This document shows, piece by piece, positions 3,412-15,353 of a DNA stretch of 64,000 nucleotides (its first letter is position 1; every line of letters begins with the position of its first letter). The stretch lies in the NCBI GenBank assembly GCA_037481875.1, contig JBBFKY010000007.1, positions 62,001-126,000 of the forward strand. Direction: 5' to 3'. The notes under the pieces are model-generated. The model ran no database searches, was not told the DNA's origin, and was given only the letters and a program-made list of their open reading frames with translations. The position numbers and the translations under genes are program-made. The DNA comes from Desulfosoma sp. (GTDB lineage Bacteria; Desulfobacterota; Syntrophobacteria; Syntrophobacterales; DSM-9756).

Positions 3412-5616
3412 TTATCGCCCCGAGGCAGGCAAGCCTCGATTCAAACGATGCGCCAGCAGTGTGTAGCGCTCTTGGATACGGTTGTTGCGCACCGCCATGG
3501 CCAAAGCCTTACGAGAACCTACCAGCACCACAAGCTTTTTCCCTCGGGTTACAGCCGTGTACAGAAGATTACGCTGAAGCATGACGTAATGCTGGGTCAC
3601 CAGAGGAACCACCACCACCGGGTATTCGCTTCCTTGAGATTTATGGACACTCACAGCATAAGCGTGGGTAATCTCGTCCAGTTCAGAAAAATCGTAGGTT
3701 ACCAGCCGGCCGTCGATTCGAACGCGTAGTTCTTGGTTTTCTTCGTCCACCGCATGAATACGGCCCACATCCCCGTTAAAAACTTCCTTGTCGTAATTGT
3801 TGCGAACCTGCATGACCTTGTCGCCCACACGATACACTTTTCCGGCGCGTTCCACAGCCCGGCCCTTGGGGTTCAAGGCCTTTTGCAGCACCTCGTTCAA
3901 TCGCTGCGCTCCCACGACCCCTCGATGCATGGGGCTCAGAACCTGAATGTCGTCCACTGGGTTCAAACGAAATCGTTTCGGTATGCGGCTCACACACAAT
4001 TCCACCACAAGACCCAGGACTTCTTCCGGATCATCCTTTTCGATGAAATAGAAATCCGAAAGTTTGTCCTTTTGGGTACTGCCATTGATTGGAAACAATC
4101 CTTCCCGAATCCGATGGGCGTTGACCACAATGAGACTTTTTTGTGCCTGCCGAAAGATCTCCGTCAGGCGCACGACGGGAAAAGCCTCGGAGGCGATGAT
4201 GTCCTGCAAAACGTTTCCGGCACCGACAGAAGGCAGCTGATCCACGTCCCCTACAAAGATGACCGTGGTTTTGGGGGCGACGGCCTTAAGAAGATGATGA
4301 GCCAACAAGGCGTCCAGCATGGAAGCTTCATCCACGATAAGGCAATCGGCCGTGAGAGGTTTCTGTTCGTTCCGCTGGAAACCTCCAGCCGCCGGACTGA
4401 ATTCCAAAAGGCGATGGATAGTCGCGGCTTCCCGGCCTGTGGCTTCACTCAGTCGCTTGGCCGCACGCCCCGTAGGAGCGGCCAGGGCCACGCGAGCCCC
4501 TAGAGCCCTGTAAGCAGCACAGATGGCTCGAACCAGAGTGGTCTTACCTGTTCCGGGGCCTCCGGTGATGACCAGAACCTTTTCCGTCAGGGCTTTGCGA
4601 ACGGCCTCCAACTGTAATGGAGCCAATGGAAACGGCAACCGAGATGTTATATCCGTAAGGATCTGATTGATGGTACTTGAAGAAAACCGCTTGGCAAGAA
4701 AGGCAATCGAAGCCAATCGGGCAGCCGTTTGGGTTTCTGCCGTGTAGTAGCCTCGAAGATACACGACCTCTCTGTCCCCCATCGCCTGGGCCATTGTATC
4801 GGTCAATTTTTCCACAATCACTCGGCCATCAGCCGCTAACGCCTGCAGTCCCTGTTCCAAGACCTCGCGGGAGGATTCAAGAAGCTTTTCGGCCTCCGCC
4901 AGAAGCCGGTTTCGAGGTAGACACACATGGCCCTCGTCGGTCGCATGAAACAACACATAATGGAGCCCGGCTTCGGCGCGCCGCACCGAATCACGGCTGA
5001 ATCCCAAGCTCTGGGCGATCTTGTCCGCCGTGACAAACCCGATCCCGGACACCTCCATGGCCAGCCGATAAGGGTTTTCCTGAAGCACCTTGAGGGATTC
5101 CTGACCGTACTGTTTAAAGATGCGTGTGGCATGGGTTGCACTTACACCATGGGTTTTCAGAAAAATCATCACTTCACGGATTTCTTTTTGATCATCCCAT
5201 GCCTTGATGATGCCGCTCAGGCGTTTCGGCCCGATCCCTTCCACTTCAAGAAGTCGTTTAGGTTCACGCTCAATCACATCCAGGGTAGCCGATCCAAAGG
5301 TTTTCACGATACGCTTGGCCATTTCGGGTCCGATACCCTTGATAAGCCCGGAACCCAAGTACTTACGGATACCTTCCACCGTGTCGGGAGTGAGCGTCTC
5401 ATATTGATCCACGCGAAACTGTTCGCCGTACTTGGGATGACGCGTCCAGGAACCATGAAGACGCAGCACCTCGCCGGGTGTGACCGAGACAAAGGATCCC
5501 ACCACCGTCACCAGATCCCGCCGATCCCGGACTTTGAGACGGAGCACACTGTAGCCGTCTTCTTCACCGGCATAGGTGATCCGTTCCACTTGACCCTCCA
5601 AGATGTGCGTCGTCAT
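3412..5616 (-). CDS. recD2: ATP-dependent 5'-3' DNA helicase RecD2
   Basis: 734-residue SF1B helicase of the RecD/TraA type, the stand-alone RecD2 form not tied to RecBC. Domain order: N-terminal OB-like segment (~1-75), helix-hairpin-helix repeats (~90-200, e.g. GIGPEMAKRI and GIGPKRLSGI), Walker A GGPGTGKTTL at 352-361, Walker B DEASM, and the C-terminal UvrD-like motif with VHKSQGSEYPVVVVP. It acts in DNA repair and replication-fork processing. Length matches the family. ATG is chosen as the first in-frame start giving the complete N-terminus; no strong Shine-Dalgarno is visible. No recB or recC gene is nearby. Confidence 0.95.
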   Translation of the reverse strand: MTTHILEGQVERITYAGEEDGYSVLRLKVRDRRDLVTVVGSFVSVTPGEVLRLHGSWTRHPKYGEQFRVDQYETLTPDTVEGIRKYLGSGLIKGIGPEMAKRIVKTFGSATLDVIEREPKRLLEVEGIGPKRLSGIIKAWDDQKEIREVMIFLKTHGVSATHATRIFKQYGQESLKVLQENPYRLAMEVSGIGFVTADKIAQSLGFSRDSVRRAEAGLHYVLFHATDEGHVCLPRNRLLAEAEKLLESSREVLEQGLQALAADGRVIVEKLTDTMAQAMGDREVVYLRGYYTAETQTAARLASIAFLAKRFSSSTINQILTDITSRLPFPLAPLQLEAVRKALTEKVLVITGGPGTGKTTLVRAICAAYRALGARVALAAPTGRAAKRLSEATGREAATIHRLLEFSPAAGGFQRNEQKPLTADCLIVDEASMLDALLAHHLLKAVAPKTTVIFVGDVDQLPSVGAGNVLQDIIASEAFPVVRLTEIFRQAQKSLIVVNAHRIREGLFPINGSTQKDKLSDFYFIEKDDPEEVLGLVVELCVSRIPKRFRLNPVDDIQVLSPMHRGVVGAQRLNEVLQKALNPKGRAVERAGKVYRVGDKVMQVRNNYDKEVFNGDVGRIHAVDEENQELRVRIDGRLVTYDFSELDEITHAYAVSVHKSQGSEYPVVVVPLVTQHYVMLQRNLLYTAVTRGKKLVVLVGSRKALAMAVRNNRIQERYTLLAHRLNRGLPASGR

Positions 5617-5711
5617 GACGTTTTTGTTCCGTGCAAGGATTTTGACAACCAGGGCGTAATGGTTAGAATACCATTGAAATCCCCGAGATTCCAGGTAGAG
5701 GGAGGATGACC

Positions 5712-5948
5712 ATGGCTCTGTACATAAAAACGGATGATTATCGAAAGTACGGCATCAATAAGTTTTCCACGCTGGAACAGGTGCGAGCTGTGGTCCAAAA
5801 AGAGTTTAATATTTATCCGCTTTTCGTGCGGTTCGTCAATCGGCACGAATTCATTCGTGTGGACTTCCTCAAACCTCGAGGGCGTCGCCAAAGGGGCCGT
5901 TCTCAAGACGCACGAAGCCATCGACGTCGACGCCATCGCCCACAATAA
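5712..5948 (+). CDS. Small hypothetical protein, possibly frameshifted at its 3' end
   Basis: Starts at ATG 5712 with GGAGG 6 nt upstream (an in-frame ATG at 5706 is too close to it). The first ~54 residues (MALYIKTDDYRKYGINKF...) look like ordinary protein, but from about nt 5872 this frame becomes an arginine-rich run typical of a wrong frame. The +1-shifted frame is then open with G/C-rich third positions and reads EGVAKGAVLKTHEAIDVDA to a stop at 6018. Either the true gene switches frame near 5872 (real frameshift or sequencing error) or it ends in a degenerate tail. No family recognised. It lies divergent from recD2, 95 bp away. Confidence 0.5.
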   Translation: MALYIKTDDYRKYGINKFSTLEQVRAVVQKEFNIYPLFVRFVNRHEFIRVDFLKPRGRRQRGRSQDARSHRRRRHRPQ

Positions 5949-6087
5949 AACGCTGAAGATAAATCGATTCACCCGGCAAGTCCGCATGGATACACATGTG
6001 CATGGCACCCGAACGTAGGTTGAGCCTCTTGGGAGCGCATGTGCAACCGGTCCCATAGGTTGGACATGCACGTAGGGTAAGACCCTG

Positions 6088-6113
6088 TAGGGGCGCACCG
6101 GTGTGTGCGCCCC
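6088..6113 (-). repeat. REP-like palindrome, family A (GCGCAC variant)
   Basis: Perfect 9-bp stem GGGGCGCAC / GTGCGCCCC with loop CGGTGT, preceded by GTA. Orientation is opposite to the copies that end in CCGCCCCTAC. Confidence 0.85.
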
Positions 6114-6295
6114 GAAAACATGCGCTGGCGGCAGTTTTTGCGACGAACCCATGGGTCGGCCCCCACTGAGTGATGGCCCATGACCTGAGAGATTGTCCGA
6201 GAACGGATGTGACCCAGGGAGCGCGGGTGTCCCGCCCGCAAAAATAGCGGGCCAGAGGCCCGCACTCTCAGGGGGAACGGCATCATTTCGGGTTT

Positions 6296-6324
6296 GTAGG
6301 GGGAAGGCGCCGCTTCGTCCCTAC
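6296..6324 (-). repeat. REP-like palindrome, family A (divergent copy)
   Basis: GTAGGGGGAAGGCG.CGCTTCGTCCCTAC: outer arms GTAGGG / CCCTAC are intact and the inner stem is AAGGCG / CGCTT. Confidence 0.6.
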
Positions 6325-6408
6325 CAAATGGCATGCGATCCAACCGTCTTTGTCGTTCCTGGTCAACTTCCGTCCGTTGGGTTCGTTCTAAAAAGGGACA
6401 GGTTTGAT

Positions 6409-6433
6409 GGGTGGACACACGGGTCCGCCCCTA
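6409..6433 (+). repeat. REP-like palindrome, family A (decayed left arm)
   Basis: GGGTGGACACACGGGTCCGCCCCTA; the right arm matches the consensus, the left arm has a C-to-T change. Confidence 0.65.
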
Positions 6434-6615
6434 ACGACATGCTGCCACTAGTCCAAGCGATGAACGCTCGTCTAGGGGTAAAGGTTTGTCCCCATGACCA
6501 TGGTCACATGTTGGCACATAGAGACGGACCGCTCCCTTACGCCTCTGGTCATGGCGGCCAGACACCCATGCCTACGCTCCTGCCGGCATTTTGGGTGATG
6601 GGCTGAAAAATTTTC

Positions 6616-6645
6616 TTGACAAAAACCTTCTCAATGTCTTAGGCA
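6616..6645 (+). promoter_or_regulatory. Predicted trp operon promoter
   Basis: Consensus -35 TTGACA at 6616-6621, then a weak -10 around TTAGGC/TAGGCA at 6639-6645. It lies 22 bp before the leader-peptide start. The -35 is strong and the -10 poor, so a repressor or activator may also act here, but no TrpR-type operator is recognised. Confidence 0.5.
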
Positions 6646-6666
6646 AAAGCCGTTACGAGAGGCGAC

Positions 6667-6789
6667 ATGAACTTCAAAAGAAAGGTATGCACCGTGGGTT
6701 CATCCGTGTGTAGGCATAACGCGCGTTTCTGGTGGTGCTGGTGGTGGTGCGTTGTGCATGGGTGCGCCTACGGAGGTGTGTCGCTCTAG
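6667..6789 (+). CDS. trpL: trp operon leader peptide
   Basis: 40-codon reading frame starting ATG at 6667 with GAGAGG 4 nt upstream and ending TAG at 6787-6789. Codons 22-28 read Trp-Trp-Cys-Trp-Trp-Trp-Cys (TGG at 6730, 6733, 6739, 6742, 6745), five Trp codons in six positions, which is diagnostic of a tryptophan leader peptide. It also carries six Cys codons in total. Translation senses charged tRNA-Trp: a ribosome stalled on the TGG run leaves 6766-6773 free to form the antiterminator; one that reaches the stop codon covers it and lets the terminator at 6815-6842 form. Longer than the enterobacterial TrpL (14 residues). Confidence 0.93.
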   Translation: MNFKRKVCTVGSSVCRHNARFWWCWWWCVVHGCAYGGVSL

Positions 6790-6825
6790 ACCACCGGCAT
6801 CAGAGAAGCCATTAGGACCGTGGGC
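6710..6825 (+). promoter_or_regulatory. trp attenuator: alternative RNA helices 1:2 and 2:3
   Basis: Segment 1 GTAGGC (6710-6715) pairs with GCCTAC (6766-6771), enclosing the Trp codons. Segment 2 extended, GCCTACGG (6766-6773), can instead pair with CCGTGGGC (6818-6825, one G-U), which is the 5' arm of the terminator. The two pairings are mutually exclusive, as required for ribosome-controlled attenuation. Pairings were found by eye; energies were not computed. Confidence 0.8.
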
Positions 6826-6850
6826 CACCCGGCCCACGGTCCTTTTGTTT
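6815..6850 (+). terminator. trp attenuator terminator
   Basis: Perfect 12-bp stem GGACCGTGGGCC / GGCCCACGGTCC with loop ACCC, followed by TTTTGTTT. This is helix 3:4 of the attenuator; its 5' arm overlaps the antiterminator. Confidence 0.92.
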
Positions 6851-6857
6851 GTGAGCC

Positions 6858-6891
6858 AAAGGCCGTGGGATTTGATCCCTCGGCCTTTTTT
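6858..6891 (+). terminator. Second terminator-like hairpin before aroF
   Basis: Stem AAAGGCCG.GGGAT / ATCCC.CGGCCTTT (one T-T mismatch, loop TTG) merging into TTTTTT. Its 3' arm (TCGGCC) can alternatively pair with GGCCGA at 6910-6915, so it may be switchable. It sits 60 bp before the aroF start. Confidence 0.7.
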
Positions 6892-6896
6892 CATTT

Positions 6897-6916
6897 TTCG
6901 GCCTTTTATGGCCGAA
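6897..6916 (+). promoter_or_regulatory. Small hairpin before the aroF ribosome-binding site
   Basis: Perfect 7-bp stem TTCGGCC / GGCCGAA with loop TTTTAT, competing with the 3' arm of the preceding terminator-like hairpin. Possible antiterminator or translation-level element; inference. Confidence 0.45.
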
Positions 6917-6949
6917 CCCATCTCCCTCTAGGCACAGGAGGTTTCCGCC

Positions 6950-8008
6950 ATGCTTGTCGTCATGCATAAAAGGGCCACCCCGGAAGACATCGCCCAGGTA
7001 GTGCGTGCCATTGAAAGTCGAGGTTACAGCGCTCGTCCCATTCAAGGCGGGGAACGTATGGCCATTGGCATATTGCACAACCGAGGACCTGTGGATCCCA
7101 ACTGGGTGTTGAGTCTGCCCGGGGTCAAGGAGGCCATTCCCGTCACACGGCCCTACAAGCTGGTCAGCCGCGAATTTCATCCCCAGGACACGGTGATTTC
7201 CGTCGGGGATGTGCGCATCGGCAACGGTTCACTGGTTATCATTGCCGGACCCTGTGCTGTGGAAAGTGAGGAGCAGGCCTTGACCATTGCACGGCATGTG
7301 AAACGTGCCGGAGCGCACCTCTTTCGTGGCGGCGCCTTCAAGCCGCGCACGTCCCCGTACGCCTTCCAAGGGCTCGGAGAAAAGGCTTTGAAAATCCTCG
7401 ACAAGGTACGTCAAGAAACGGGTCTTCCCATCGTTACCGAAGCTCTGGACCACACCGTCTACGACCTGGTGGAAGAAACCGCCGATATTGTGCAGATCGG
7501 CGCCAGGAACATGCAAAATTTTACCTTGCTTCGACGTGCCGGGCATTCTTCCAAGCCGGTGCTGCTGAAACGCGGTATGGCGGCCACCCTGGAAGAATGG
7601 CTCATGGCCGCCGAATACATCCTGGAAGGCGGAAACCCTCACGTGATTCTGTGCGAACGTGGCATTCGTACCTTCACGGACCACAGCCGTAACACCCTGG
7701 ATCTTTCCGCCGTGCCTGTCGTCCGCAAAGAAAGCCATCTTCCCATTCTGGTGGATCCCAGCCATGCCTGCGGACGCCGTGACCAGGTGATCCCTTTAAG
7801 CCGCGCCGCCGTCGCCGTCGGGGCCAACGGGCTTATGGTGGAAGTGCATCATCGGCCCGAAGAAGCTCTAAGCGACGGTGCCCAATCTCTGTATCCCGAA
7901 CAGTTTCGAAGGCTCTGCGAAGAAATCGCTCCTCTAGTGCAACTCTACGCTCGAGCCCCGGAACCGGAAAGCACCGGCTTTTCCGCTCATCGAGCTGCCT
8001 CTTCGTGA
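6950..8008 (+). CDS. aroF: 3-deoxy-7-phosphoheptulonate synthase (DAHP synthase, type I-beta)
   Basis: 352 residues; condenses phosphoenolpyruvate and erythrose 4-phosphate, the first step to chorismate, in the cytoplasm. Residues ~1-75 form the ferredoxin-like regulatory domain seen in the Thermotoga-type enzyme; the TIM barrel follows with IIAGPCAVES, FRGGAFKPRTSPYAFQG, QIGARNMQNF, LLKRGM and the C-terminal DPSHACGRRD. ATG has AGGAGG 8 nt upstream. It is the first gene after the trp attenuator and 22 bp before trpE, so chorismate supply is placed under tryptophan-responsive control. The N-terminal domain suggests feedback inhibition (Phe/Tyr in homologues); the effector here is not known. 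Confidence 0.95.
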   Translation: MLVVMHKRATPEDIAQVVRAIESRGYSARPIQGGERMAIGILHNRGPVDPNWVLSLPGVKEAIPVTRPYKLVSREFHPQDTVISVGDVRIGNGSLVIIAGPCAVESEEQALTIARHVKRAGAHLFRGGAFKPRTSPYAFQGLGEKALKILDKVRQETGLPIVTEALDHTVYDLVEETADIVQIGARNMQNFTLLRRAGHSSKPVLLKRGMAATLEEWLMAAEYILEGGNPHVILCERGIRTFTDHSRNTLDLSAVPVVRKESHLPILVDPSHACGRRDQVIPLSRAAVAVGANGLMVEVHHRPEEALSDGAQSLYPEQFRRLCEEIAPLVQLYARAPEPESTGFSAHRAASS

Positions 8009-8030
8009 CCTCTACAGGAGTTCTTCAACC

Positions 8031-9809
8031 ATGAAGCTCAGATTTTTCCCAACCCGAAGTGAATTCAAGGACCTGTTTCAACGAGGAAACATGGTCCCGG
8101 TATGTTGTGAAATTCTTGCCGACACGGAAACCCCGGTGTCGGCCTTGGCCAAGATCAGACAACCAGGCCGTCCCGTCTTTCTTCTGGAGAGTGTGGAAGG
8201 CGGGGAACGATGGGGGCGATACAGCTTTCTCGGAGTATCGGCTTCTCGGCATGTACGTCTGTTTCGGGATCATGTGGAAATCACCGAAAACGGCAGCCGG
8301 CACCTTCTGCCGCATCATGGAAATCCTCTGCAGGTTCTGCGGAACCTCATGGCTTCCTATCGGCCTGTGTCTGTTGCCGGACTTCCACGATTTTGGGGCG
8401 GTTTGGTGGGATGGTTCGCCTACGAAACCGTTTCCTTTTTTGAAAGGATTCCCAACTCATTGCCTTCAGAAGCCCCTCTCGGCCATTTCGTCATGACCGA
8501 CGAACTGATCATCTTTGACAATGTGCGACACACCTTGACCTTGCTGGTACCCGTTGTCTCATCAAAGGAAACCGCCGATCTTGATCGTGGTTATGACGGG
8601 GCCGTAACACGCCTGGAATCCCTGGCGGAATCCTTGGAAAAACCCTTGCCTTTTCCTCCTATTCCACTAGGAGCTTATCCCAGAACGTCAAAGACCGATC
8701 CTCGAATGGCATGTCAAAGAAGGACAGAGGCGCCGGCTCATCCCTCCCTGCCTGAAACCGTCTCTTTTTCTGGACCCTCTCATTCTGCGGGCGGGACATC
8801 TACACTCATAGAAGAAGACCCGTTCTCATCCATGCCCTTTGGTTCACTCACTCCCGTTTCCCCTGGTTATCATGACGCTACAAAGCGCCCTTTCGCCGCG
8901 CGATCCGGTTCCACTTCAAGCGCGTTTCGGTCCTTGGTGGCCCCAGATGATTTTTTGGCCATGGTTCGCACGGTCAAGGACTATATTCGTGCCGGGGATG
9001 TCATCCAAACGGTCATTTCCCAGCCCTTCGTGATCCAGCCGGCTCCGGACCCTTGGTTTCTCTATCGAGCCCAGCGTTTTATCAACCCATCCCCTTATAT
9101 GTTTTTTATGGAACTGGACGACCGGATCCTTGTGGGTTCATCTCCGGAAACCATGGTGCGTCTGGAAAACGGTGTGGCCACACTTCGGCCCATTGCCGGC
9201 ACACGGCCTCGAGGTGCCACCGAACAGGAAGATCGACGTCTGGCCGACGAACTTCTCAAAGACCCCAAGGAACGTGCTGAGCATCTCATGCTGGTGGATC
9301 TAGGCCGAAACGACCTGGGGCGAGTGGCCGAAACCGGGACCGTGCAGGTCACCGACCTCATGGTGGTGGAAAGGTATTCCCATGTGATGCACCTGGTGTC
9401 CAACATCACCTGCGACCTTAGGCGGGACTATGATGCCTGGGATCTGTTGCGCGCCACTTTTCCGGCGGGAACCCTCACCGGAGCCCCCAAGATTCGAGCC
9501 ATGGAAATCATCGCCGAGCTGGAACCCACACCGCGAGGTCCATACGGCGGGGCGGTGGGCTACATCTCATACACGGGCAACATGGATCTGGCCATCACCA
9601 TTCGCACCGCTTGCCTGCACGACGGCCTCATGACCGTTCAAACGGGTGCCGGGATTGTGGCCGACTCCGTCCCCGAACGGGAATACGAGGAAACCGTGAA
9701 CAAAGCCAAGGCGATGCTCAAGGCCGTGGCCTTGCTTCAAAACGCCGAAACCTTCAATCACCAAAGTGAAGGAGGACTTTTCCATGATTGTCATGATCGA
9801 CAATTATGA
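8031..9809 (+). CDS. trpE: Anthranilate synthase component I, with enlarged interdomain insert
   Basis: 592 residues, against roughly 490-520 in most homologues. With TrpG it converts chorismate and glutamine to anthranilate. The tryptophan feedback site LLES at ~52-55 followed by RYSFLG is intact, and the chorismate-binding domain carries the usual PETMVRLENG, PIAGTRPRG, DLGRNDLGRV and GTLTGAPKIRAMEII motifs. Between the two domains, residues ~205-300 form a Ser/Pro/Thr-rich low-complexity insert absent from typical TrpE. It keeps frame and has no stop, so it is part of the protein. AGGAG precedes the ATG. The 3' end overlaps trpG by 26 bp. Confidence 0.96.
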   Translation: MKLRFFPTRSEFKDLFQRGNMVPVCCEILADTETPVSALAKIRQPGRPVFLLESVEGGERWGRYSFLGVSASRHVRLFRDHVEITENGSRHLLPHHGNPLQVLRNLMASYRPVSVAGLPRFWGGLVGWFAYETVSFFERIPNSLPSEAPLGHFVMTDELIIFDNVRHTLTLLVPVVSSKETADLDRGYDGAVTRLESLAESLEKPLPFPPIPLGAYPRTSKTDPRMACQRRTEAPAHPSLPETVSFSGPSHSAGGTSTLIEEDPFSSMPFGSLTPVSPGYHDATKRPFAARSGSTSSAFRSLVAPDDFLAMVRTVKDYIRAGDVIQTVISQPFVIQPAPDPWFLYRAQRFINPSPYMFFMELDDRILVGSSPETMVRLENGVATLRPIAGTRPRGATEQEDRRLADELLKDPKERAEHLMLVDLGRNDLGRVAETGTVQVTDLMVVERYSHVMHLVSNITCDLRRDYDAWDLLRATFPAGTLTGAPKIRAMEIIAELEPTPRGPYGGAVGYISYTGNMDLAITIRTACLHDGLMTVQTGAGIVADSVPEREYEETVNKAKAMLKAVALLQNAETFNHQSEGGLFHDCHDRQL

Positions 9810-10368
9810 TTCCTTTACCTACAACCTGGTGCAGTATCTTCAGATGCTAGGAGCCGACGTTCGGGTAATCCGTAACGATGCGGCGTCGGTGGAAGAAATC
9901 TTGTCCTGGCGTCCTCAGGGCATTGTCATTTCTCCTGGACCCGGTCGGCCTGAAGATGCAGGCGTCTCGGTAGCTCTTATTCGAGCTGCTCGCTCCATCC
10001 CCGTTCTCGGGGTCTGCTTAGGCCATCAGGCCATCGCCGTGGCTTATGGAGGACGTGTGGGTTCGGCCCGTCATCTGATGCACGGCAAAACATCCATGGT
10101 GCATTCGGACGGTCGCGGCATTTACCGAGGGATTTCGGGGCCGTTTCAGGCCATGCGCTACCATTCTTTGGCCGTGGACCCCGCAGTGCTGCCTGAATGT
10201 TTGGAAATCAGCGCCCAGGCCGATGACGGCGAAGTCATGGGCATTCGCCACAAAACCTACCCCTGTGAAGGCATTCAGTTTCATCCCGAATCCATCATGA
10301 CTCCTGTGGGAAAACGCCTTTTGCGCAATTTCCTGAACGGGCAAGGAGGGAACAGCCGTGTTTGTTGA
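9784..10368 (+). CDS. trpG: Anthranilate synthase component II (glutamine amidotransferase)
   Basis: 194-residue class I amidotransferase that supplies ammonia to TrpE. It begins MIVMIDNYDSFTYN; the nucleophile Cys78 lies in GVCLGHQ and the His-Glu pair in FHPES near residue 168; the PGPGRPEDAG loop binds glutamine. The start at 9784 is chosen because GGAGG lies 8 nt upstream; a GTG at 9766 precedes that site. The gene begins inside the last codons of trpE and ends 11 bp inside trpD, so the three are likely translationally coupled. It could also serve p-aminobenzoate synthesis, as in some bacteria, but context favours tryptophan. Confidence 0.95.
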   Translation: MIVMIDNYDSFTYNLVQYLQMLGADVRVIRNDAASVEEILSWRPQGIVISPGPGRPEDAGVSVALIRAARSIPVLGVCLGHQAIAVAYGGRVGSARHLMHGKTSMVHSDGRGIYRGISGPFQAMRYHSLAVDPAVLPECLEISAQADDGEVMGIRHKTYPCEGIQFHPESIMTPVGKRLLRNFLNGQGGNSRVC

Positions 10369-11425
10369 TCTGCTTCAGCGTCTCACACGACGAATCGACC
10401 TCACGGAAGACGAAATGAGCGGCCTTATGGAACAGCTCATGTCCGGAGCTCTTACCGACGCTCAAATCGGAGCCTTCATGGCGGCTCTGGCCACCAAAGG
10501 CGAAACCTTTACCGAACTGGCGGGGGCCGCTCGAACCATGCGCCGAAAAGCTTATCGTCTGCACGTACCCGCCTCCACCGTGGTGGATACATGCGGCACG
10601 GGCGGTGACGGCGCTCAAACTTTCAACATTTCCACGACAGCCGCCTTTGTGGTGGCAGGCTGTGGTGTCACTGTGGCCAAACATGGGAATCGTTCTGTTT
10701 CCAGTCGTTGCGGTAGCGCCGATGTGCTGGAAGCCCTGGGGGTTCGGCTGGATGTGGATCCGGAAGTGGTGGAAGAAATCATTGGGGATATCGGGATCGG
10801 TTTCCTCTTTGCGCCGCTTTATCACGGCGCCATGAAATACGCAGCCAAAGCGCGCAAAGAAGTGGGGATTCGATCCATTTTCAACATGCTGGGCCCTTTG
10901 ACCAACCCGGCAGGAGCCAACTGCCAGGTGCTTGGTGTGTTTGCTCCGGAATTAACGGAAATGTTCGCCAAAGCCTTGCAACTTTTGGGAACACGTCGTG
11001 CTTTTGTGGTCCACGGCCATGACGGCCTGGATGAAATCAGCGCTTGTGCACCGACACGTGTCACAGAACTTCAGGACGGTCTTGTGCGGACCTACGACCT
11101 GGATCCGGAACGTCTTCTGGGCCGAACGGCCGATCCTGACGCCCTGCGCGGGGGATCTTCTGAGGAAAACGCGCGGATTCTGCAATCAGTCCTTCAAGGA
11201 TCCTCAGGACCATGCCGGGATGTGGTGGTGCTCAATGCGGCGGCGGCATTGATCGCCGCAGGCAAGGCAGAGGATTTTCGAGAAGGCATTCGTATGGCGG
11301 AACAAAGCATCGATTCCGGCGCCGCCTTTGACAAGTTGAAAAGCCTTGTGCGTCTCACGCGTGAAAAAGCACCAAGTGAATCGCTCGAGCCACCGCCTAA
11401 GACGGCTTTCACTTCGGGAAACTGA
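10358..11425 (+). CDS. trpD: Anthranilate phosphoribosyltransferase
   Basis: 355 residues; transfers phosphoribose from PRPP to anthranilate. The signature DTCGTGGDGAQTFNIST and the following KHGNRSVSSRCGSADVLEALG are intact, as is GPLTNPAGA. GTG start with AAGGAGGG upstream, overlapping the trpG stop by 11 bp. Length is slightly above the usual ~340 because of a short C-terminal extension (APSESLEPPPKTAFTSGN). Confidence 0.95.
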   Translation: MFVDLLQRLTRRIDLTEDEMSGLMEQLMSGALTDAQIGAFMAALATKGETFTELAGAARTMRRKAYRLHVPASTVVDTCGTGGDGAQTFNISTTAAFVVAGCGVTVAKHGNRSVSSRCGSADVLEALGVRLDVDPEVVEEIIGDIGIGFLFAPLYHGAMKYAAKARKEVGIRSIFNMLGPLTNPAGANCQVLGVFAPELTEMFAKALQLLGTRRAFVVHGHDGLDEISACAPTRVTELQDGLVRTYDLDPERLLGRTADPDALRGGSSEENARILQSVLQGSSGPCRDVVVLNAAAALIAAGKAEDFREGIRMAEQSIDSGAAFDKLKSLVRLTREKAPSESLEPPPKTAFTSGN

Positions 11426-11458
11426 AGAGGCTTAGGGGCTTTGTGGGGGTTTTCATTC

Positions 11459-12307
11459 ATGAGTGACATTCTTTCGAAAATCCTGAAGACCAAACATGAA
11501 GAAGTGGCGGCTCGATCGGCTCAAAGGCCTTTGGCAGAACTTCGTCGCATGGCGGAAGCCATGCCGAAACCGCGCCCGTTCGCTTCGACCCTTTACGCCG
11601 GGGGAACGTCTAATGACCAGTTTGAAAGCCAAAGAGTTCGGCTCATTGCTGAAATCAAACGGGCGTCTCCTTCCAAAGGGATCCTTTGTCCCGATCTGGA
11701 TCCTGTGGCTTATGCTCAAGCCTATGCCCGCGGTGGAGCCGCCGCCCTTTCCGTTCTCACGGACGGCCCCTTTTTTGCCGGATCTCTGGAAGATTTGCAG
11801 GCGGCTCGAAAGTCTGTATCCCTTCCGGTGCTCCGCAAAGATTTCACGGTCAGCCTCTACCAAATCTATGAAGCTCGAGCCTTTGAAGCCGATGCGGTGC
11901 TTTTGATCGTGCGGGCGGTTTCCCCGGAATTCCTGCGGGATGCTCTCGCTCTGTGTGATGCTCTGGGTTTAGCGGCACTTACCGAAGTCCACGATGAAAC
12001 GGAACTGGAAACAGCTCTTCGGTACGGTGCCCGGCTGGTGGGGGTCAACAACAGAAACCTTAAAACCTTTGAAACCAGAGTGGAGACATCGATTCGGTTG
12101 AGGCGCCTTATTCCCGAAGACCGCATCATGGTGGCGGAAAGCGGCATTCGAGACCGCTCGGACATCGAACGGCTTCTGGAAGCAGGAATTTTTAACGTGT
12201 TGGTGGGAGAATCCTTGGTCAAGGCTCCAAATCCCGAAGCCGCCGTACGAACATTGGCCGAACCCTTTGGGTCTGGAACAGTTAGGACCACGGTCGGCAA
12301 CCCGTGA
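11459..12307 (+). CDS. trpC: Indole-3-glycerol phosphate synthase
   Basis: 282-residue TIM-barrel enzyme converting carboxyphenylaminodeoxyribulose phosphate to indoleglycerol phosphate. Motifs seen: LIAEIKRASPSKG, LSVLTDGPFFAGS, PVLRKDFTV, LLIVRAV, GVNNRNLKTF, VAESGI and VLVGESLV. ATG 11459 is preferred over an upstream TTG at 11441, since homologues begin near MSDILSKIL; the ribosome-binding site is weak. Stand-alone, not fused to TrpF. It is followed by an unusual 355-bp gap before trpF. Confidence 0.95.
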   Translation: MSDILSKILKTKHEEVAARSAQRPLAELRRMAEAMPKPRPFASTLYAGGTSNDQFESQRVRLIAEIKRASPSKGILCPDLDPVAYAQAYARGGAAALSVLTDGPFFAGSLEDLQAARKSVSLPVLRKDFTVSLYQIYEARAFEADAVLLIVRAVSPEFLRDALALCDALGLAALTEVHDETELETALRYGARLVGVNNRNLKTFETRVETSIRLRRLIPEDRIMVAESGIRDRSDIERLLEAGIFNVLVGESLVKAPNPEAAVRTLAEPFGSGTVRTTVGNP

Positions 12308-12662
12308 AGCCGTTATATGGAGGAAAAGGGAGCCATGAGGCATCGTCACCCCATTAAAAATTCTTCAACCGACCCTACCCGTCTTCGCATACCCATGTGT
12401 CCGTCCCCACTAGCAGAACCCTTTACGGGCGGACCGATCTGTCAGCTCCCCATCGCGGGACCCGTTACCGTTCCATTCATGTGTCGCCCAACTACCGGGG
12501 GACCCTGTCGCGGCGCACAGACTTGTCCATCCCAAATGGCACCCATAGGGCCCGATTTCGATCGCACACATGGGTACGCCCCTACAGATGTCGGTCCCTG
12601 CGCACGATTTTCCAAACCTGGACACCGACCCACAGTCCCACTTCACCTGCGAGGCTTTCACC
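12308..12662. other. Repeat-filled gap inside the trp operon (trpC-trpF)
   Basis: All other junctions in this operon are 22 bp or less, or overlap. Here, 355 bp hold about four decayed family A units (around 12391-12412, 12423-12449, 12500-12530 and 12569-12590, the last ending in GTACGCCCCTAC). A good ribosome-binding site, GGAGGAAAAGGGAGCC before ATG 12334, stands at the left end but drives only a frame made of repeat sequence. Confidence 0.7.
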
Positions 12663-13313
12663 ATGTTCATTAAAATCTGCGGGATCACTTCCCCTGAAGA
12701 CGCCCAAGAGGCCGCATCTTTGGACATTCAGGCGGTGGGGCTCGTCTTTTACCCCAAAAGCCCACGCTACGTGCCTGAAGCCACCGCCCGGGACATCGTG
12801 CGCGTACTCCCTTCCCACATCCTGGCCGTCGGTATCTTCGTGGATGTCCCTTCGACAGCCATCCTGGCCACGGCCCATTCCCTGGGGCTTCATGCCGTAC
12901 AACTGCACGGTCTAGAACCCCCCGAAGACATCATCCATCTCAAAGCTGCAGGACTTTGCGTCATCAAGGCTCTCTTTGTGAATCGAAACCCTTCTCTTCT
13001 CGATCACCCTCGCTACGCGCCTTCGGCCTTTCTGGTGGAATGCGCCGGAACTCACCGTCCCGGAGGCAACGCTTTGGCTTGGGACTGGGGTCAAGCCCGA
13101 GGCATCGTCCACGGCACACCCATGATTCTTGCCGGAGGCCTCACACCCGAAAATGTTCAGGGAGCCATTCGCATCGCGGAACCTGACGGTGTGGATGTAA
13201 GTTCCGGTGTGGAAAGTCAACCTGGCCGAAAGGATCCTGAAAAGATGCAAAGATTCGTCAACGCCGTGCGCCGTTTGCGGCCACGGCCCATGCAAGGAGG
13301 CATTTTCGCATGA
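12663..13313 (+). CDS. trpF: Phosphoribosylanthranilate isomerase
   Basis: 216-residue TIM-barrel isomerase. It starts [14 protein letters not shown], with the catalytic Cys in KICG; QLHG, VLAGGL-type [11 protein letters not shown] and DVSSGVES are present. ATG 12663 is the family start; the frame is open upstream but only through repeat-derived sequence. GAGG lies ~9 nt upstream. Its TGA overlaps the trpB ATG by 4 bp, indicating coupling with trpB. Confidence 0.95.
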
Positions 13314-14542
13314 ATCCCACAATCGCCGTGACACCCGTTCAGGTTAACCCCAAATTCGAACCCCGACACCCCATGCCGGATGTTCGAGGCCATTTCGGCC
13401 CCTACGGAGGCCGCTATGTGGCGGAAACCCTCATGCCGGCCCTACTGGAGCTGGAAGCCGCGTACATGGATGCTCAAAAAGATCCCTCCTTTCACAAAGC
13501 CTTTCATCGGCTTTTACAGGATTACGCCGGCCGCCCCACGCCCCTCTTCTTCGCTCGACGTCTCACGGCCTATGGCGGCGGCGCCAAAATTTACCTCAAG
13601 CGCGAAGATCTGGCCCATACCGGAGCCCACAAGATCAACAACACGCTGGGTCAGGTCTTGCTGGCGCAACGCATGGGGAAGACAAAGGTCATTGCGGAAA
13701 CGGGAGCCGGTCAGCATGGGGTGGCCACCGCCACCGCAGCGGCTCTTTTTGGCATGGAATGCCGCATCTTCATGGGTACCGAAGACGTGAAACGCCAAGC
13801 CCCCAATGTACGCCGCATGGAACTTCTTGGAGCGCAAGTGATTCCCGTGGCTTCCGGCACGGGGACGCTCAAAGACGCCATGAACGAAGCCATGCGCTAT
13901 TGGGTGAGTGCCGTTCGAGACACCTTTTATGTCATCGGGTCCGTGGCGGGACCTCACCCCTACCCCACCATGGTTCGGGATTTTCAGCGCGTGATAGGCG
14001 ATGAAGCCCGTCGTCAGATTCTGGAACAGGAGGGCGAGCTGCCCAAGGCTCTTATCGCATGTGTGGGAGGCGGCAGCAATGCTATGGGCCTTTTTTACCC
14101 CTTTCTGGAAGATCCTGTGGAACTGATCGGCGTAGAAGCGGCCGGAAAAGGTCTTCATACGGGAAAACACGCCGCAACTTTGGGAGCGGGATCCATAGGA
14201 GTTTTGCACGGATCCAAATCCTATGTGCTTCAAGACGCTTACGGACAGATCCTTGAAGCCCATTCCATCTCGGCCGGTTTGGACTATCCGGGTGTTGGTC
14301 CGGAACATTCCTGGTTAAAAGACAGCGGCCGAGCACGCTATGTTTCCATCACCGATTCGGAAGCTCTTGAAGCCTTTCGCACCTTGTCCACTCTGGAAGG
14401 GATCATTCCCGCGCTGGAAAGTGCCCATGCCGTCGCGCATGCCATAAAGGAAGCGGCCCGAAGACCCTCCGAAGATATTCTCATCGTCAATCTTTCGGGT
14501 CGCGGCGACAAGGACCTGGGTATCGTCTTCAAGGATCTTTAG
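13310..14542 (+). CDS. trpB: Tryptophan synthase beta chain
   Basis: 410 residues; PLP-dependent condensation of indole and serine. Schiff-base Lys108 lies in [11 protein letters not shown]; the phosphate-binding loop is [18 protein letters not shown] and the C-terminal LSGRGDKD are intact. This is the TrpB1 type that pairs with TrpA. AAGGAGG precedes the ATG, which overlaps the trpF stop (ATGA). trpA follows 13 bp later. Confidence 0.97.
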
Positions 14543-14555
14543 AAAGGTGCACACG

Positions 14556-15353
14556 ATGAGCCGATTGCAACACACCTTTGAAACACTCAAGGAAAAAGGC
14601 GAAGGCGCTCTGGTGGGTTTTGTCACGGCAGGGGATCCCAACCCGGAAACTTCCATGAGCCTTCTTCGAGCCATGATCGACGGAGGGGTGGATATTCTCG
14701 AGCTGGGTGTCCCCTTTTCGGATCCTACAGCCGACGGCCCTGTGATTCAGCGCTCTTCGGCAAGGGCGCTGGCTCAAGGCATGACCTTGGAAAAAACCCT
14801 TCAAATGTGCCGAGCATTACGGGAATGGACCGATATTCCCGTTGTGATTTTCAGCTACTATAATCCCATTCTGGCGATGGGAAATGCTCGGTTTTATGAG
14901 GAAAGTCTTAGGTGCGGAGCCGACGCTGTCCTTGTGGTGGACCTGCCCCCTGAAGAATCCCGAGAACTTCTGGACCAATGGGCCGGAAACCGGTTGGATT
15001 TCATTCGGCTCGTGGCCCCGACCACACCCACTAAACGCATGGCGGCCATCGCCCGTGAAGCTTCCGGGTTTCTTTACCTTGTGTCCATGACCGGGGTGAC
15101 GGGAAGCTCAGGGTTGGATCTTTCAGAAGTGGCCGCAACCGCCGGGCGTTTGAAACAGGTGACTTCCCTTCCGGTCTGTGTGGGCTTCGGCATTTCTCAA
15201 CCGGAACATGTAACGGCCGTCTGCCGCATGGCCGAAGGGGCTGTGGTAGGAAGCGCTTTTGAGCGGCTTATCGAAGAAAACCTGGAAGCCACGGACCTTG
15301 CCGAACGCATCGGCCGCTATGCCCGGTCCCTCAAGGCCGCCACCCGCAAGTAG
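14556..15353 (+). CDS. trpA: Tryptophan synthase alpha chain
   Basis: 265 residues; cleaves indoleglycerol phosphate to indole, which is channelled to TrpB. Catalytic Glu in DILELGVPFSDPTADGP and Asp in VDLPPEES are visible, with YLVSMTGVTG and VCVGFGIS downstream. ATG 14556 is used (AGAAAGG upstream); a GTG at 14547 overlaps that site. Last gene of the operon; no U-tailed hairpin directly follows, and the next 500 bp are repeat-rich. Confidence 0.96.
   Translation: MSRLQHTFETLKEKGEGALVGFVTAGDPNPETSMSLLRAMIDGGVDILELGVPFSDPTADGPVIQRSSARALAQGMTLEKTLQMCRALREWTDIPVVIFSYYNPILAMGNARFYEESLRCGADAVLVVDLPPEESRELLDQWAGNRLDFIRLVAPTTPTKRMAAIAREASGFLYLVSMTGVTGSSGLDLSEVAATAGRLKQVTSLPVCVGFGISQPEHVTAVCRMAEGAVVGSAFERLIEENLEATDLAERIGRYARSLKAATRK

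Follow-up and report, generated by a model that had tools for sequence, protein, structure and literature searches.

The DNA in front of the aroF-trpEGDCFBA operon of a sulfate reducer related to Desulfacinum raises the question of whether tryptophan supply acts there on a single transcription terminator or on two. An earlier inspection of the same DNA (the sequence-only reading) described a complete trp attenuator ending at position 6850, but overlooked a conserved second terminator between 6850 and aroF. The element is probably a transcription attenuator under ribosome control, with two terminators coupled to each other. Positions refer to the window, i.e., the whole stretch of 64,000 nucleotides that was analysed, which belongs to a genome of 3.4 Mb; the closest named relative of its aroF among the genome contigs searched is that of a Desulfacinum MAG (84% protein identity).

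All genes behind the attenuator are encoded on the plus strand in the order aroF-trpEGDCFBA (Table 1), placing aroF within the controlled operon as the sequence-only reading had proposed. The genes are tightly packed except for an unusually long gap of about 350 bp that separates trpC from the TrpF domain (12308-12662) and harbors an ORF (12317-12673) without Pfam match. Because the TrpF domain begins only at about residue 31 of the annotated frame, the true start of trpF may be ATG 12663. The probable promoter was not called by a consensus scan because of its poor -10 element, and the spacing from TTGACA to TTTAGG or TTTAGC is preserved among the relatives. A third palindrome (TTCGGCC...GGCCGAA, 6897-6916), which has no T-run, follows terminator 2 ahead of aroF; one congener (G001) has a similar inverted repeat and another (G002) lacks it.

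Table 1. Positions of the attenuator elements and operon genes in the window.
Feature	Positions	Strand	Remarks
Probable promoter	6616-6644	+	TTGACA 6616-6621, spacer 17 nt, weak -10 TTAGGC 6639-6644
Leader ORF trpL	6667-6789	+	40 codons from ATG6667 or 31 from GTG6694; stop TAG 6787-6789
Segment 1 (CCGTGGGT)	6692-6699	+	can pair with segment 2 (6766-6773) when the ribosome is absent; genus only
Regulatory codons	6730-6747	+	TGG TGG TGC TGG TGG TGG (WWCWWW); clustered Trp codons kept in relatives
Segment 2	6760-6773	+	antiterminator strand on the 5' side: GGGUG, bulged C, GCCUACGG
Post-stop element (ACCACCGGC)	6790-6798	+	complement of the Trp codons, giving an alternative 1:2-like helix
Segment 3 and terminator-1 loop (ACCC)	6814-6830	+	common to 2:3 and 3:4
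Terminator 1	6814-6850	+	13-bp stem 6814-6826/6831-6843, loop ACCC, T-rich tail to 6850
Segment 4	6831-6843	+	3' strand of the terminator-1 stem; its bases 6833-6841 pair with segment 5
Segment 5 (GGCCGUGGG)	6861-6869	+	5' strand of the terminator-2 stem; complementary to segment 4
Terminator 2	6861-6891	+	6861-6865/6881-6885 and 6867-6871/6875-6879, TxT mismatch 6866/6880, then T6
aroF	6950-8008	+	DAHP synthase, first structural gene; NF006421, E 5.5e-150
trpE	8031-9809	+	
trpG	9766-10368	+	
trpD	10358-11425	+	TIGR01245, over cut-off
trpC	11441-12307	+	
trpF	12570-13313	+	domain from about residue 31
trpB	13310-14542	+	TIGR00263, over cut-off
trpA	14547-15353	+	TIGR00262, over cut-off

The product of the leader ORF 6667-6789 reads MNFKRKVCTVGSSVCRHNARFWWCWWWCVVHGCAYGGVSL* and contains the five in-frame tryptophan codons (6730, 6733, 6739, 6742, and 6745) of the WWCWWW motif that had been recognized before. 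Clusters of at least four tryptophans within six residues occur at four places in the six frames of the 64 kb, one of them being trpL. The length of 40 codons assigned to the leader is a less firm matter: the reading frame exists, but ATG6667 is unconserved, GTG6694 is conserved, and both congeners are limited to the equivalent of the latter (31 codons), so that translation may begin at either the 40-codon or the 31-codon start. The peptide core FWWCWWWC is kept across the family. Segment 2 starts 3 to 19 nt past the last tryptophan codon, and its codon frame differs among the relatives, indicating that it is the RNA and not the peptide that is conserved past the tryptophan codons. The spacing in the window agrees with the proposed geometry, the last tryptophan codon lying 12 nt 5' of segment 2 and the stop codon just past it.

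The genomes used for comparison were picked via their TrpE proteins rather than via RNA features, and the DNA upstream was then read; their sequences are phylogenetically correlated. A Trp-rich leader ORF, terminator 1 and a second terminator are found in 32 of the 32 readable genomes of the order, including the window, a count that leaves out one genome with a sequence gap and a few contigs ending too early. All parts are also present in four genomes from another order of the same class, so that each of the 36 class genomes in which this region is readable has a tryptophan leader before aroF or trpE followed by tandem terminators, a finding that answers the call of the sequence-only reading for conservation of the leader. 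Outside the class, both terminators are present at four loci (L036, L038, L045, and L047) and a leader with one terminator at three (L037, L040, and L041), while no tryptophan leader was found at several relatives with related aroF genes. At L009/L116 (genome G005), the attenuator is followed by a short ORF with an AroF-like start (MLVVMHQKATQEQ...) and then by trpE; aroF seems to be reduced to an N-terminal remnant there.

The region of the attenuator folds better than 200 shuffled versions (z -4.7), and three hairpin-plus-T-run sites are observed in 6751-6900, where only 3 of 200 shuffles contain at least two. Two of the helices drawn before are real but were drawn too short. The antiterminator 2:3, given as 6766-6773/6818-6825, comprises in addition 6760-6764/6826-6830 and thus amounts to 13 bp with C6765 bulged, taking in the loop of terminator 1 besides its 5' arm. 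Likewise, the terminator helix given as 6815-6826/6831-6842 is present with T-rich DNA behind it, but its stem has 13 bp instead of 12 (-28.7 or -29.2 kcal/mol for helix 3:4). The search for covariation suggested at the time revealed compensatory changes in both structures, as judged from a trimmed alignment (A2) and tables of the arms. Helix 3:4 shows double changes at 7 of 12 pairs among the relatives, and each of the 34 leaders tabulated has an antiterminator predicted at -18 to -30 kcal/mol. The loop of terminator 1 covaries with segment 2, their own pairings being better than all 20,000 swaps, although this count is optimistic, the sequences being related.

The proposed 1:2 helix found no support. 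The strands 6710-6715/6766-6771 are complementary, yet this pairing lies outside the minimum free energy (MFE) fold and has no counterpart among the relatives; in the ribosome-free MFE fold, segment 2 is paired to segment 1 at 6692-6699 within a long 1:2 structure. This structure is strong in the window but variable across relatives: the CCGTGGG of segment 1 is found in two congeners and missing from the sister genera, and no shared 1:2 helix was found across the 34 leaders. The post-stop element is conserved in the family as ACC(A/G)CC(A/C)GC and pairs with the tryptophan codons in the ribosome-free folds of many relatives, but not in that of the window.

Terminator 2 has a predicted stability of -16.7 kcal/mol in the window and is placed 17 nt past terminator 1; in the tabulated relatives, the spacing is 9 to 26 nt (9-20 in most, with 13 to 17 the commonest range), and the second hairpin reaches -11 to -29 kcal/mol, again with a U-tract. 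Its 5' arm, segment 5, can form a helix of 9 bp with 6833-6841 of terminator 1. This helix 4:5 is present in all 34 tabulated leaders, and at its nine core positions 97.3% of the combinations are standard pairs, compared with 92.0% in the stem of terminator 2 itself. At the fourth core position, 12 of 33 genomes have a mispair in the stem of terminator 2, but 4:5 is paired in 32 of 33. On alignment A2, helix 4:5 shows double changes in 5 of 10 pairs, and sliding it by one column lowers the pairing from 96.5% to 57% or less. Mismatches in 4:5 do occur at some loci (L192 and L217). Within the 64-kb window, where few real terminators exist, no other terminator with an arm resembling segment 5 was found.

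From the sequences, the operon, and the conservation and covariation observed, we infer the responses of ribosome and polymerase as follows, the 4:5 step above all. With ample tryptophan, the ribosome would translate WWCWWW, arrive at the stop codon (6787) and hinder segment 2; judged by the general footprint of ribosomes, no more than the 3' end of that segment would be covered from there. Helix 3:4 would then form and RNA polymerase would halt near 6843-6850, while polymerases slipping through would meet helix 5:6 and halt near 6886-6891. If charged tRNA-Trp is scarce, the ribosome should stall on the TGG run, leaving segment 2 free to pair with segment 3 and the terminator-1 loop. Segment 4 would thereby stay single-stranded and may pair with segment 5, such that 5:6 is not formed and aroF-trpEGDCFBA is transcribed. 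The calculated energies agree with such a sequence of events: as long as segment 5 has not been made, 2:3 (-22.6 kcal/mol) loses to 3:4 (-29.2), whereas with segment 5 present, 2:3 plus 4:5 (-38.3) is stronger than 3:4. The best structure of the full-length RNA at equilibrium is 3:4 plus 5:6 (-46.9). The model therefore needs kinetic control, with the order of synthesis deciding, as is also the case in E. coli and for other attenuators. It appears fairly likely that this domino-like arrangement, in which one ribosome position flips the RNA between 2:3/4:5 and 3:4/5:6, represents an architecture that Trp, Phe, and Tyr genes share in much of the Desulfobacterota. Both intrinsic terminators would then open and close together, segment 5 locking the antiterminated state.

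The most serious alternative, possible but rather unlikely in our view, is a single-terminator trp attenuator followed by an independent fail-safe terminator, which would be a duplicate of terminator 1 weak enough to let enough polymerases by; helix 4:5 would then be a by-product of similar arms. Indeed, a CCGTGGG-like sequence is common to the arms of the aromatic attenuators in one genome, and duplication or a preferred terminator sequence may thus account for part of the 4:5 complementarity. Own 4:5 pairings inside genomes with multiple attenuators surpass cross-pairings only by a modest margin (-17.2 vs. -15.8 kcal/mol; 66 of 20,000 shuffles), and a control helix 3:6, which the model does not need, gives a signal similar to that of 4:5 (54 of 5,000), for which reason we keep the coupling as an inference. 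Against a mere by-product stand 22 cells of the arm tables in which 4:5 pairs despite a mispair in 5:6 or 3:4, compared with seven in which only 4:5 fails, all of the latter at the helix end and in one group. Moreover, both arms have changed together in two deep relatives: L038 carries A to G in segment 4 and T to C in segment 5, and in L047 the arms are rewritten, with 4:5 pairing at a position where both hairpins mispair. The strength of the second hairpins also disagrees with a leaky fail-safe device, since an uncoupled terminator of this kind before aroF would lower expression even in starvation; the logic of the system thus favors coupling.

Further attenuators of related design were sought with a covariance model (R1) built from terminator 1, the spacer and segment 5, which yielded candidate sites in 152 out of 395 genomes sampled from the phylum. 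Because R1 preferentially picks up loci that have a segment 5, these numbers should not be taken as frequencies, and the frequency of tandem terminators was derived only from the protein-chosen loci. Most R1 sites that were inspected closely are amino-acid attenuators whose leader codons fit the gene behind. In the genome of the window, a leader with FYFYYGWY and tandem terminators precedes a second DAHP synthase gene (G000:C2:85203-85257, minus strand; L182) and is the Phe/Tyr counterpart of the Trp-controlled aroF. A second Trp attenuator of the same genome (leader ...WSWWWQAWT*; G000:C3:15373-15432, plus strand; L185) lies with tandem terminators before a TrpB-like gene (trpB2), and a Tyr-rich leader (YDYYGYGY; G000:C3:359656-359717, minus strand; L183), likewise with tandem terminators, precedes a gene for a periplasmic amino-acid-type binding protein (PF13458), perhaps belonging to a tyrosine uptake system. 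The leuA gene is preceded by an LLRTLDLLLLL leader and a similar terminator without a second one (G000:C3:92588-92645, plus strand; L186), a natural single-terminator comparison. Other genomes contain attenuator sites before trpE, trpD, and aroA'-like genes, including aroA'-type genes with aromatic leaders and tandem terminators. Two Trp leaders with one terminator each (WWRWWW in L199 and WWCWWW in L201) point to a putative Trp attenuation of a 2-oxoacid oxidoreductase, the gene behind L199 matching the alpha subunit of indolepyruvate ferredoxin oxidoreductase (iorA) and that behind L201 looking alike. Finally, a Phe-rich leader (FFRFCCFQFFGGFFF) with two terminators is found before a gene for phenylacetate-CoA ligase (L198; G013:C25).

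The remaining explanations fare less well than the fail-safe one. That the element consists of helices 1-4 only, as first drawn, with terminator 2 lacking any role in vivo, appears quite improbable: four segments do explain Trp control without it, and L037, L040, and L041 outside the order manage with one terminator, but the occurrence of terminator 2 in 36 of 36 readable class genomes and beside the Phe/Tyr, trpB2, and transporter attenuators indicates that it is under selection. A further role in trans for the terminated leader RNA or its peptide, of the kind reported for Sinorhizobium meliloti peTrpL (PMC7298713), seems very improbable to us. Whenever tryptophan is plentiful, a short RNA that is stable and conserved would be made along with a peptide, and the conserved core of that peptide would suit such a role, but the Trp codons and the RNA pairing account for its conservation, and the C-terminal frame varies. 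Control by a T-box, a riboswitch or another catalogued RNA, with an incidental leader ORF, is extremely unlikely, since Rfam 15, including RF00513 (Trp_leader), gave no match up to an E value of 1 for positions 5500-8500, ten related loci yielded nothing at gathering score, and in each operon the leader codons fit the pathway under control.

If the chained reading is true, the tightness of an attenuator can be raised by a second terminator that is slaved to the first via one extra helix, under the physical rule that segment 5 out-competes segment 6 for pairing or precedes it, which would provide a usable part for tight amino-acid-responsive switches. The loci also outline a candidate regulon of sulfate reducers, in which Trp leaders would govern trpB2 and one DAHP synthase, a Phe/Tyr leader another DAHP synthase, and a Tyr leader a transporter gene. 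The catalogue of amino-acid attenuators beyond the Gammaproteobacteria is thin; a large survey had only four Rfam amino-acid leader families available (PMC3766115), none of which matches here.

Compared with trpL of E. coli (RF00513), the element shares a short leader ORF with adjacent Trp codons as the first part of the trp transcript and a 2:3 antiterminator excluding a 3:4 terminator. It differs by its leader ORF of 31 or 40 codons, as opposed to 14 codons in E. coli, by an antiterminator reaching into the terminator loop, by a second terminator complementary to the first, and by the inclusion of aroF in the operon. Two adjacent Rho-independent terminators behind a ribosome-controlled leader are mentioned for the ermK attenuator of Bacillus licheniformis in a passage of PMC4335068 citing Kwak 1991; as far as that description goes, ermK is set apart by responding to stalling by erythromycin instead of amino-acid supply and by controlling a resistance gene. 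Tandem terminators together with a potential antiterminator are also known from the rimP-leader of some Gammaproteobacteria, which precedes other genes and for which no amino-acid leader peptide is described (PMC2965389). Within the broader group, an attenuator was predicted upstream of the aroA'-aroB'-...-trp supraoperon of Desulfovibrio vulgaris (PMC1173090, Table 7, from Merino's database), likewise ahead of aromatic and trp genes; the passage concerned mentions neither tandem terminators nor a 4:5 pairing. No description of tandem or chained terminators in trp or other amino-acid leaders of Desulfobacterota was found in the open literature. The principle of the textbook trp attenuator is known, and what appears to be new in the element before aroF is the second terminator, probably chained to the first.
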